Assembly: GCA_947482345.1 (NCBI GenBank)
Contig: CANKJN010000006.1
Coordinates: forward strand, 1-54,945
Length of the DNA stretch: 54,945 bases
Reading direction: 5' to 3'
From: Spartobacteria bacterium
GTDB taxonomy: Bacteria; Verrucomicrobiota; Verrucomicrobiia; Chthoniobacterales; UBA6821
In this document: positions 19,472-47,220 of the stretch, piece after piece
Numbering within the stretch: position 1 is the stretch's first letter
Layout of the letters: every line of letters begins with the position of its first letter
Translations under genes and position numbers: made by a program
Notes under the pieces: generated by a model
What the model saw: only the letters and a program-made list of their open reading frames with translations
What the model was told of the DNA's origin: nothing
The model's database searches: none

Positions 19472-20698
19472 TCAGCGGCTCCCATAGTAATCGGCAAGCC
19501 CTTGCGCCACGGCATCGGCATATTCCCTGTAAATGCTTGGCAGTTGGGAGCCCCCCACGTTGCGTCGCCCCTGATAATCTCCCATTTGCACGCGGTTGAA
19601 GACCGCCCGGCTGTTCATGACATACGGCTCACAGTAGACGACCGGGCATTCGAACAGGCGGTTTGCCAGCAGGTTGCGGATCCAGAGATAAGGATTCGAG
19701 GAGGCGGGGATTCCCTTGGTGCCATGGTAGACAAAGGGTTCGAGTCCGGTGGCGGAGGCCAGGGAACGGGCGACGGCCTCGGAGGCTCCGAGTTCGGCGG
19801 CATGGGTCCCGCCGAGGAGTTTCACCAGCATGGTGTGGCGCTCATCCTCGTGCAGAAGTTCCTCGCGCGAGATGTTTCCGGAGAGCAGCAGGTGAAGGTG
19901 GTTTTTGTCCGTCAGGGAGGGGCGGGCCGGATCACCCCACTCCTCCGCATTGAAGTGGAGGCACACCACGAGGTCGGGACGGATGTGGCCGTTCACCATC
20001 CGGGCCCGGTTGCGGATCTCGCCGACCCGGTAAAAGAGCCTCTCGGTCTCATCCTGAAGTCGCTTGCCCGACGGAACCACACCCTCCTCCCTGAGCGATC
20101 CCGCCGCGACTTTCCTGAGACTTCCGGGGCGCAGCGGCGTAGTGGGGCCGTTCCTGGTCCTGGTCAGCCAGACCTCCGCACCCATCGACTCCAGTTGCTG
20201 TTTCAGGAGCTTCGCGACCATCAGGGTCATCTCCCCCTCCTGGACGGGGCGACTGTTACCGATCCGGAACCAACGGGCTTCCATCTTCGCATAGCTTCCC
20301 CCGAGGTGGCCCGGATCGATGGCGATGCGGAGACCGGCAAGCGGCCGACCGGGGACGGGGGAGCGCGCCGTGCGGTCCTTCCAGAACCGGGGCGGGGCCT
20401 TTGGAGTCGTGCCCGGAGAGGCGAGGGGGAGGGCGATTGGAGCGGCGCCCGGCCTCGGGGTAATCAGGGCCTCGGTCGGGGAGATGCTGATCCACTCCCT
20501 CCACGATCCGTCGGGCACGTAGACCTGTCTGAGAAGCCTCTCGAAATCGGCGGCCGTGATTGTTCCCACATACTGCCCGATGGTGCTCCAGTCGGGCTGG
20601 GGAGCCAGCGGGCTGAGGAGGGCGGCCGGCGCGGAAACGGACGAAGCCAGCAGGACAAAAGCCGCGACATAGCGAAATGCATAAGGGCGAATCTTCAA
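19472..20698 (-). CDS. N-acetylmuramoyl-L-alanine amidase (Amidase_3)
   Basis: Periplasmic peptidoglycan amidase of 408 residues. It has a signal peptide (VAAFVLLASSVSAPAA) and an N-terminal region of about 100 residues before the catalytic domain. All expected zinc ligands and catalytic residues are visible: DPGH (H131), QEGE (E156), LHFN (H248) and CEPY (E357). The start is TTG at 20698. The last 25 residues (GSQLPSIYREYADAVAQGL) are shared with a degenerate paralogue at 42247. It probably trims peptidoglycan at division, which fits its place just upstream of parA. Confidence 0.9.
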   Translation of the reverse strand: MKIRPYAFRYVAAFVLLASSVSAPAALLSPLAPQPDWSTIGQYVGTITAADFERLLRQVYVPDGSWREWISISPTEALITPRPGAAPIALPLASPGTTPKAPPRFWKDRTARSPVPGRPLAGLRIAIDPGHLGGSYAKMEARWFRIGNSRPVQEGEMTLMVAKLLKQQLESMGAEVWLTRTRNGPTTPLRPGSLRKVAAGSLREEGVVPSGKRLQDETERLFYRVGEIRNRARMVNGHIRPDLVVCLHFNAEEWGDPARPSLTDKNHLHLLLSGNISREELLHEDERHTMLVKLLGGTHAAELGASEAVARSLASATGLEPFVYHGTKGIPASSNPYLWIRNLLANRLFECPVVYCEPYVMNSRAVFNRVQMGDYQGRRNVGGSQLPSIYREYADAVAQGLADYYGSR

Positions 20699-42144: not shown

Positions 42145-42191
42145 CCGCAACGGCTTCTAAGGAACCGCTGATTTAATCAGCGCTTCCCTAG
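42145..42191 (+). repeat. MITE-like element end with head-to-head termini
   Basis: CCCGCAACGGCTTCTA matches the interior right end of the element at 46947-47220. It is followed by GGAACCGCTGATT joined to TAATCAGCGCTTCC (42161-42187), which puts both terminal repeats back to back, flanked by CTAA and CTAG. It appears to be an internally collapsed copy. Confidence 0.7.
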
Positions 42192-42246: not shown

Positions 42247-43539
42247 ATGTTGATGGTTAGGTTCGCATGCTTTCTTTGTGCCGCCCTTTTTGTCGGCATT
42301 CTTTCCACTACCCGTGCCGCGATCCAGCCGGGTGACCTTCTTAAGGATCCCTCAAGCGAAGAATGGGCGGCCCTCTCCAGATTCGACGGACGGATGAGCC
42401 GAGCCCGGTTTGAGGAGGGACTGCAGACCATCTTTGATCCCTTTGGCGGGCTGCGGTCCTTTCTCAAAATCACCGACTCCTCCGTGGAGGTCTTTTCCAC
42501 ACCCGTGCAAGAGACTCGGCTCGCCACGATCGGCTTTGCCACCACACAGCAGCCTCCCCCGGCGCGACCTTCACCGGGAGGCCCTACCTTCCAGTCAGGC
42601 TCATCGAATTCTCTCCAGGGTCTGACGCTGATGATCGACCCCGCCGATATCGGAGGGGCTTGGGGACCGATGGAGAATCGCTCCAGCTACTACAGGGGTT
42701 ATGGCCGCATCCAAGAGGGCGATCTGAATCTGCTGGTCTCCAAGCTGCTCGCCGAACGCTTGCGCCAACTTGGGGCGGCGGTTTACGTCACCCGCGACTC
42801 AAGCGAACCCGTCTGCAAGGCAAGCATTCCCGAGGTCGCCAAGATCGTCCCTTCCATGCTTTCGGAGCGCCCCTACATTCTCGCCGGCACCTTCCGTTCC
42901 AGAACCCGGAATATCCGTAAATCCTCGCCCATCTACGAGCGGATCGTGGCCGAAGTCCTGCTGACCAAGAACCTCGAGGCGCGCGCTCGCGCCGAGATGA
43001 GTGCGGGCACCATCAAGCCGGATCTCACGATCGTTCTTCAATTCGATGCATCCCCGGCCAGCCGTCACCTGAAGCTTGCCAAGATCAACCGGAACATCCT
43101 CTTTGTCGAAGGGGCCTACACCGCCCGCGAACTCACCAAGGATCCCCGTCAACGCTACCGATTGCTGACCAAACTCCTGCAGGACGTGACGCCGACAGAG
43201 ACACTGGCTGCGATTGCCATAGCCAATCGGCTAAGCGAGGCAACCGGATTCCCCCCCGTCGGCTACGGGGACTCGAAGACCACCCGCGCCATCGAGGGGA
43301 GCCCCTACGTCGTCGCCCGCAACCTTCTACTCCCCCGCGAACATGAAGGGCCGGTCGTCGTGACGGAACCCTATTTCATGAATGAGCCCGTCACCCTTCA
43401 GCGCCTACTCGCTGGTGACTTTGAAGGGGTCCGGGAGTTTGGCAGCCAACAGCTCCCCAGTATTTACCGTGAGTATGCCGACGCCGTGGCAAACGGCTTA
43501 CTGGACGCTTTTTCCGCAACGAAACCCGAGGAACACTAA
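42247..43539 (+). CDS. Degenerate Amidase_3 paralogue (pseudo-amidase)
   Basis: 430 residues with a signal peptide (MVRFACFLCAALFVGILSTTRA). It is clearly related to the amidase at 19472: same domain order, IQEGDLNLLVSKLLAERLRQLGA against VQEGEMTLMVAKLL, and an almost identical C-terminal QLPSIYREYADAVA. The active site is lost: DPGH has become DPAD (131-134), QEGE has become QEGD (D159) and LHFN has become LQFD (Q265). Only the late Glu is kept (TEPY, E374). It should be unable to hold catalytic zinc, so it may be a peptidoglycan-binding or regulatory pseudoenzyme. The gene is full length and not frameshifted. It lies between two MITE-like ends, and its TAA stop is part of the right one. Confidence 0.85.
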   Translation: MLMVRFACFLCAALFVGILSTTRAAIQPGDLLKDPSSEEWAALSRFDGRMSRARFEEGLQTIFDPFGGLRSFLKITDSSVEVFSTPVQETRLATIGFATTQQPPPARPSPGGPTFQSGSSNSLQGLTLMIDPADIGGAWGPMENRSSYYRGYGRIQEGDLNLLVSKLLAERLRQLGAAVYVTRDSSEPVCKASIPEVAKIVPSMLSERPYILAGTFRSRTRNIRKSSPIYERIVAEVLLTKNLEARARAEMSAGTIKPDLTIVLQFDASPASRHLKLAKINRNILFVEGAYTARELTKDPRQRYRLLTKLLQDVTPTETLAAIAIANRLSEATGFPPVGYGDSKTTRAIEGSPYVVARNLLLPREHEGPVVVTEPYFMNEPVTLQRLLAGDFEGVREFGSQQLPSIYREYADAVANGLLDAFSATKPEEH

Positions 43540-43810: not shown

Positions 43811-44202
43811 ACCGATATCTCCCACTCCTGGTTACCCTCCTGCTGCTGCCCGCCTGCACCAGCCACCTCCAGCAGAAGGAGAACTACCTTCGCCAGGCGG
43901 GATTCCGCCCGGTCACTCCCACGACCCCGGCCCAGATCGCCAGGGCCAAGGCCATGCCGCAGGGACACATCCAGAAGGTCACCCGCAACGGCAAGACCCT
44001 CTTCGTTCTCTCCGATGCGAAGAAGAATCTCCTTCTCATCGGCGGCAACCCCCAGCTTGAACGCTACCAGCAGATCCTCTACACCAAGCAGGTCGATCCC
44101 GCGATCGAGGATCGGGCCTTCGACAAGGCGCTGGAATACGACGGCTTCGGATGGGGCGGCATGATGGATCCCTTCTTCGGGATGCCGATGATGATGTATT
44201 GA
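43807..44202 (+). CDS. Putative lipoprotein A, twin of the one at 46172
   Basis: 131 residues. Lipoprotein signal MNRYLPLLVTLLLLPAC with the lipid-bearing Cys at about residue 17. The body TPTTPAQIARAKAMPQGHIQ, TRNGKTLFVLSDAKKNLLLI and GGNPQLERYQQILYTKQVDP aligns throughout with the protein at 46172 (TTPEQIAHF, TRNGSTLFML, GGESEFQSYQEILYAREVEP). The C-terminus is Met-rich (GGMMDPFFGMPMMMY). Family and function not recognised. It overlaps the preceding gene by four bases. Confidence 0.8.
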   Translation: MNRYLPLLVTLLLLPACTSHLQQKENYLRQAGFRPVTPTTPAQIARAKAMPQGHIQKVTRNGKTLFVLSDAKKNLLLIGGNPQLERYQQILYTKQVDPAIEDRAFDKALEYDGFGWGGMMDPFFGMPMMMY

Positions 44203-46171: not shown

Positions 46172-46564
46172 ATGAAACGCTTTCTTCCCATAGTTGCCCT
46201 CCTGCTCCTCACGCTGGTTCTTCCGGCCTGTGCCTCCCACCTGGATAAGAAAGAGGGCTACCTCAAGGAAGCCGGCTTCCGCACCGTGAAGCCGACGACG
46301 CCCGAGCAGATCGCCCACTTCCAATCACTCCGCAAGAACCACATCACCCAAGAGACCCGCAACGGCAGCACCCTCTTCATGCTCGCCGACGAGAACAAGA
46401 ATATCCTCCTCGTCGGTGGCGAATCCGAATTTCAGAGCTATCAGGAAATCCTCTATGCCCGCGAAGTGGAACCGGGTAAGAAGAGTGCCAAGTTCACCAA
46501 GGGAATCGAAAACATCTGGGATCAGGGATGGGGGTCGGTGCTGGGTTCGATGATTCCGCAGTAG
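46172..46564 (+). CDS. Putative lipoprotein B, twin of the one at 43807
   Basis: 130 residues. MKRFLPIVALLLLTLVLPAC is a lipoprotein signal with the Cys at position 20. The body is clearly paralogous to 43807-44202 over about 95 residues but ends in KKSAKFTKGIENIWDQGWGS. Function unknown. A perfect 10-bp hairpin follows the stop. Confidence 0.8.
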   Translation: MKRFLPIVALLLLTLVLPACASHLDKKEGYLKEAGFRTVKPTTPEQIAHFQSLRKNHITQETRNGSTLFMLADENKNILLVGGESEFQSYQEILYAREVEPGKKSAKFTKGIENIWDQGWGSVLGSMIPQ

Positions 46565-46946: not shown

Positions 46947-47220
46947 GGAAGCGCTGATTAAATCCCATGAAGGCCGCTGAAGAGCATTTGCTGATTTTTG
47001 AAGGCGCGAGTGCTGGGCGATACCCGCAGCGGTCTCGCCCGAGCGAGCAACGCGGCAAAAATCGACAAATGGCTTCAGCCCTTTGGGTTGCGGGGATAAC
47101 AGGCCGGGGGCTGCGTTGGCTTGGCACTTACAGCCCACTGAGGGGATGCTCGTGCCAAGCCGCCTTGCCCGCGGCCCATTCTTCCCGCAACGGCCTCTAT
47201 GCGATTTAATCAGCGGTTCC
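46947..47220 (+). mobile_element. 274-bp MITE-like element
   Basis: 18-bp terminal inverted repeats GGAAGCGCTGATTAAATC and GATTTAATCAGCGGTTCC match at 17 of 18 positions. They are flanked by CTAG (46943-46946) and TTAG (47221-47224), a near-perfect 4-bp target duplication. There is no transposase; the interior has GGGCGATACCCGCAGCGG and GC-rich palindromic pieces. Related ends occur at 42145-42191 and 43537-43553. Confidence 0.8.

Follow-up and report, generated by a model that had tools for sequence, protein, structure and literature searches.

An Amidase_3-family homologue of Verrucomicrobiota with both zinc histidines replaced: a candidate secreted pseudo-amidase retained under purifying selection

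The gene at 42247-43539 of the window (the whole 54,945-nucleotide stretch of Spartobacteria bacterium DNA analysed here) encodes a diverged homologue of the Amidase_3 amidases in which both zinc-binding histidines are substituted, and it belongs to a small clade of equally substituted genes that is maintained by selection. We consider it probable, though well short of certain, that the product is a secreted pseudo-amidase, which would bind peptidoglycan or a partner protein and modulate active amidases or wall turnover.

The open reading frame is intact, comprising 430 codons followed by a TAA stop, and its description as full-length in a sequence-only reading made earlier was correct. The encoded protein (P0001) is approximately 34-35% identical along its length to the 408-aa protein encoded at 19472-20698 (P0002), and the C-terminal segment QLPSIYREYADAVA, which that reading had regarded as kept, was common to both in the pairwise alignment. 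The Pfam profile for Amidase_3 (PF01520) matched P0001 with an E-value of 0.00037 and 21 bits, below the gathering cut-off of 27 bits that P0002 passes; this partial match was the only one in the Pfam scan of P0001, and no peptidoglycan-binding domain was found there. The AlphaFold model of P0001 had a mean pLDDT of 63 with low confidence at the active-site loops, where the uncertainty was too large for judging the geometry of the site. Its top fold matches in the PDB were LytH, CwlD, Ami1/Rv3717, CwlV, AmiC2 and AmiA, all of them Amidase_3 amidases, and the list obtained for the P0002 model was likewise headed by Amidase_3 amidases. A phmmer search of the PDB with P0002 gave no match, and a profile search of the PDB reached only LytH. 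Taken together, the profile E-value, the fold search and the identity to P0002 place the window protein in the family by homology, and as judged from sequence and predicted fold it is a diverged Amidase_3 homologue. It is probably secreted: the hydrophobic N-terminus reads, by eye, as a Sec signal peptide (MVRFACFLCAALFVGILSTTRA), and the N-termini of the homologues are, again by eye, hydrophobic and signal-like as well.

In the mycobacterial amidase Rv3717 the zinc ligands are His11, Glu46 and His101, whereas Glu176 interacts through water and Gly10 is structural (PMC3852659). Alignment of the window protein with P0002 showed that the first zinc histidine (His131 of DPGH in P0002) is replaced by Asp134 (DPAD) and the second (His248 of LHFN) by Gln265 (LQFD), as had been recognized in the sequence-only reading, which had missed that the glycine preceding the lost first histidine is changed too, to Ala133. 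Contrarily, its assignment of E156 of P0002 as a replaced zinc ligand has to be corrected: of the two glutamates of QEGE the first is the ligand (E154 in P0002, E157 in P0001), which is retained in the window protein (QEGD), and E156 cannot be a ligand because its column holds D, E or V among active-type sequences. In LytH the ligand glutamate corresponds by alignment to the Glu in LEKD, and in the canonical Amidase_3 protein of the same genome to that in PEKM; its column is invariant in the 52 active-type, 19 type-2 and 9 type-3 rows of the alignment (for the types see below). Glu374 (TEPYFMN), the presumed catalytic position, is also kept in the window protein and invariant across all three types; its catalytic role was assigned from motif resemblance to canonical amidases and not from alignment, the profile alignment to the canonical amidase having stopped short of this segment. 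In local hhalign comparisons with the canonical amidase, both histidines and the ligand glutamate were aligned for type 1, and types 2 and 3 aligned poorly. The window protein thus has D134, E157 and Q265 in place of the canonical His-Glu-His ligand set, and by comparison with Rv3717 the loss of both histidines should abolish the zinc site. Sequencing errors do not account for these changes, since a gene from another genome of the same genus (G206) carries identical substitutions. The earlier view of a zinc site erased without damage to the frame therefore stands as regards the frame and the histidines and overstates the rest, as two of the three ligands are gone and the glutamates remain. With the replacing Asp and Gln invariant and both glutamates kept, the site is, on the evidence of the alignments, substituted and not eroded. 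Coordinates are given in Table 1.

Table 1. Coordinates in the window of the pseudo-amidase gene, its active-site codons, the flanking MITE ends and the active-type paralogue.
Feature	Position	Strand	Basis or remark
Active-type (H-E-H-E) Amidase_3 paralogue	19472..20698	-	Most genomes of the order have one copy
Pair of MITE ends, back to back (GGAACCGCTGATT / AATCAGCGCTTCC), flanks CTAA and CTAG, no interior	42161..42187	.	Repeat search
Type-3 (D-E-Q-E) pseudo-amidase gene	42247..43539	+	Intact ORF and intact homologues
Codons A133-D134 (DPAD), replacing G-H of DPGH	42643..42648	+	A, D in 9/9 type-3 rows; G, H in all 52 active-type and 19 type-2 rows
Codon E157, zinc-ligand Glu, retained as the first E in QEGD	42715..42717	+	Alignments
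Codon Q265, replacing second zinc His (LHFN to LQFD)	43039..43041	+	Q in 9/9 type-3 rows; all type-2 rows Y, all active-type rows H
Codon E374 (TEPYFMN), presumed catalytic Glu	43366..43368	+	Same residue throughout types 1, 2 and 3
Single MITE end (GTAACCGCTGATT on minus strand), then CTAA; overlaps stop codon TAA	43538..43550	-	Repeat search

Homologues were searched in 213 genomes of the order, in samples of the class (384 genomes) and the phylum (388) and in 62 genomes of one further order; some match to the amidase family was present in 190 of the 213. They fall into three types, named by the residues at the four positions described above: type 1 (H-E-H-E, active-type; 52 sequences sampled), type 2 (H-E-Y-E; 18 distinct loci, e.g., L006 and L039-L054, in 19 alignment rows as L006 and L066 are one locus) and type 3 (D-E-Q-E). 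The latter comprises nine loci, namely that of the window (genome G000) and those in G206, G199, G194, G062, G061, G210, G339 and G329, which span two orders and five families of Verrucomicrobiota. Ala, Asp, Glu, Gln and Glu are invariant in all nine sequences, which are 43-76% identical to P0001. Types 2 and 3 share the segments TEPYFMN, VVARN and YG[ND][ST], and type 2, with the second zinc histidine uniformly Tyr, may constitute a second pseudo-amidase group. Where checked, genomes with type 2 were also seen to hold an active-type gene.

In a tree built without the histidine columns, type 3 was monophyletic (SH-aLRT 99), and types 2 and 3 together were split from the 52 type-1 sequences by a branch with SH-aLRT 100. 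Type 2 was weak as a single clade (SH-aLRT 52), and type 3 may have arisen either from within type 2 or beside it. The sequence from G339, which belongs to the other order, clustered with those of G061 and G062 (support 90), which suggests either transfer or deep paralogy combined with loss. The 19472 gene grouped with the active copies from other genomes; a recent duplication of this gene as the origin of the window gene was considered and rejected, since a fully supported branch separates type 3 from the active amidases. Consequently, the proposal that the window gene is a paralogue of the 19472 amidase holds in the sense of homology and fails in the sense of duplicate origin, in view of this branch and of the two orders: by the tree, the gene is not a local duplicate and stems from an ancient line of paralogues within the class. 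The same genome has, on another contig near a hisF-like gene, a third Amidase_3 gene, which is canonical (G000:C121:294-797, L055). All three types occur together in Verrucomicrobia bacterium LW23 (G329, record QAZA01000018), and every type-3 carrier complete enough to judge also has a type-1 gene; the carriers in which none was seen, G206 and G210, are both only 73-76% complete. Within the genus the type-3 gene was present in 4 of 16 genomes, a rare and patchy occurrence which indicates that it is dispensable.

Internal stops were absent from all nine type-3 homologues. Flags of '1 TAG' in G199 and G194 were considered as frame disruption and rejected, because the alignment had run past the normal stop. 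Pairwise dN/dS, calculated according to Nei-Gojobori for unsaturated type-3 pairs, ranged from 0.085 to 0.26, these ratios being rough as dS was high in most pairs (the best pairs were G061/G062 with a dS of 0.45 and G000/G206 with 0.76). In the pair G199/G194 the ratio for type 3 was 0.085 (322 aligned codons) as compared to 0.095 for the active paralogue. Intact frames and dN/dS below 1 in the homologues are the pattern of a pseudoenzyme under selection, and from these ratios the type-3 gene is retained under purifying selection. The sequence-only reading, which had argued for retention from the intact frame alone and had named frame-disrupted or neutrally evolving orthologues as its refutation, is borne out on this point, as the aligned relatives were neither.

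Following this, we propose that P0001 would no longer hold zinc in the canonical H-E-H manner and would not be a working N-acetylmuramoyl-L-alanine amidase. The second zinc histidine was probably lost first, being Tyr in the sister group and Gln here, and the first would then have been changed to Asp, while the domain, both active-site glutamates and the family-specific segments were held by purifying selection. Most likely the protein would bind to stem peptides of peptidoglycan or to a partner in the envelope and would modulate either the active paralogue or the local turnover of the wall. Against this reading it has to be said that a fixed Asp and Gln together with both glutamates are more than a pure scaffold needs, and the site could serve another metal or another reaction. 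In such a re-tooled enzyme, the main rival reading, which we regard as unlikely, Asp134, Glu157, Gln265 and Glu374 would form a new site with another metal (e.g., calcium, magnesium or manganese) or none; that its reaction on peptidoglycan or some other polymer of the envelope would be a different hydrolysis or transfer is, as part of the same reading, equally unlikely. The invariance of the four residues at the identities given above and the uniform Ala before the lost histidine argue for it, as does the H-E-Y sister group, which suggests stepwise remodelling of the site, the D-E-Q-E centre having perhaps been reached via states like the latter. However, to our knowledge no amidase uses a D-E-Q-E-like site, Gln coordinates metals poorly and the modelled active-site loops are too uncertain to lend a geometry to the new centre. 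Moreover, CwlM also keeps its acidic residues, although its essential function was not abolished when they were mutated (PMC4946905). Even less probable appears a weak amidase, in which zinc or another metal would be bound with lower affinity by D134 and E157 and the normal bond would be cut slowly or with an activator only. The two retained glutamates would be in line with this, as would the Amidase_3 proteins solved with partners (LytH-ActH and CwlD-GerS), both among the top fold matches, and an older report that credited CwlM with activity despite its missing ligands; nevertheless, both histidine ligands are gone in every type-3 member, and each carrier complete enough to judge has an active-type paralogue.

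With regard to genomic location, two arrangements occur within the genus: G000 and G206 have the type-3 gene 3' of nfo, and in G194 and G199 it is found upstream of engB-rsgA. A neighbour gene common to all type-3 carriers or a conserved operon partner was not found, so that no partner can be named. In a tree of nfo and engB the type-3 carriers in the genus did not form one group (three changes, weak support), and with carriers scattered on a weakly supported tree gain and loss are indistinguishable; an empty carB-engB site could not be shown in other genomes, since no carB was found there adjacent to engB. Near the pseudo-amidase gene, the window has two small genes that are lipoprotein-like and related to each other (43819-44202 and 46172-46564). 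G206 has both of them near each other, and in G194 a relative follows nfo.

The repeats flanking the gene are ends of a MITE family (GGAASCGCTGATT, CTAR flanks) with approximately 170 ends in the genome: GKAACCGCTGATT, with at most one mismatch, gave 173 matches in the 2.36-Mb genome as compared to 1 in a reversed control. The ends have the form GGAA[GC]CGCTGATTAAATC, and a typical copy measures 274 bp with YTAR flanks, usually CTAR; shorter (approximately 45-54 bp) and longer variants (313 bp and approximately 346-379 bp) exist, and the family was noted in this genome at loci L131-L149 of G000 and, as one complete copy, in the window at 46947-47220. Terminal inverted repeats and a YTAR target duplication, repeated in the same genome, are as expected for ends of IS5-like MITEs; the IS5 label is our assumption from the target preference. 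A palindrome at 42163 was considered as near-unique and rejected, its shorter end sequence being highly repeated. The double end upstream of the gene is the remnant of an internally deleted element, and no complete element surrounding the gene was found. Both outer flanks are CTAA, which is compatible with a 1.39-kb unit, but CTAR being the usual target this match is weak evidence for such a unit. In G206 one end-like motif (GTAACCGGTGATT, L003:4738-4750) was found upstream of the pseudo-amidase gene, near the place equivalent to the MITE end in the window, and none downstream. The simplest reading is that MITEs inserted on both sides of a gene already in place; transposition of the gene by the flanking ends is possible. 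Hence, the mobile-element ends reported earlier on both sides are real without forming an element around the gene, and of the proposed arrival by duplication with movement, duplication of the 19472 gene is rejected by the tree; the ends may have moved the gene, and its location differs within the genus. That the gene is a young pseudogene or functionless passenger of these ends is very improbable, for although the ends with their CTAA flanks, one of them over the stop codon, the patchy distribution and the differing locations in one genus would fit, the gene is intact in nine of nine cases with dN/dS well below 1 and in one genome pair equal to that of the active paralogue, in G206, with a single end-like motif, the gene likewise lies 3' of nfo, and the clade spans two orders.

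The secreted pseudo-amidase favoured here resembles several known systems. Degenerate LytM domains, namely EnvC, NlpD and DipM, regulate amidases and likewise are inactive relatives of wall hydrolases acting as envelope regulators, but they have the LytM (M23) fold and regulate another enzyme family, whereas the window protein and its target would be related to each other. With Rv3717/Ami1, CwlD, LytH and AmiA it shares the predicted fold, the DP..GG motif, the ligand Glu and the presumed catalytic Glu, and differs from canonical Amidase_3 proteins by the replacement of both histidines, by its score (21 bits versus the cut-off of 27) and by long insertions, which its own active paralogues also have. 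The type-2 sister sequences have lost the second histidine too, though to Tyr, and keep the first. The precedent is CwlM (Rv3915) of mycobacteria, an AmiA/LytC (Amidase_3) pseudo-amidase regulating MurA, whose essential role is regulatory and in which the zinc histidines are degenerate and the acidic active-site residues conserved (PMC4946905). Both proteins are Amidase_3 homologues with both zinc histidines degenerate and the acids kept, the role of CwlM being non-enzymatic. However, CwlM is a cytoplasmic protein with peptidoglycan-binding domains and a phosphorylation substrate of PknB, whereas the window protein has a signal-like N-terminus, no binding domain was found in it, and it belongs to a Verrucomicrobiota clade with Asp and Gln for the histidines. 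Pseudo-amidases are little known, with the cytoplasmic CwlM as the main precedent, and the present clade seems to have arisen separately, its products probably being located in the envelope. The site states H-E-H, H-E-Y and D-E-Q form a readable series, and as all of them are present in LW23 the steps from enzyme to presumed non-enzyme can be compared there side by side.
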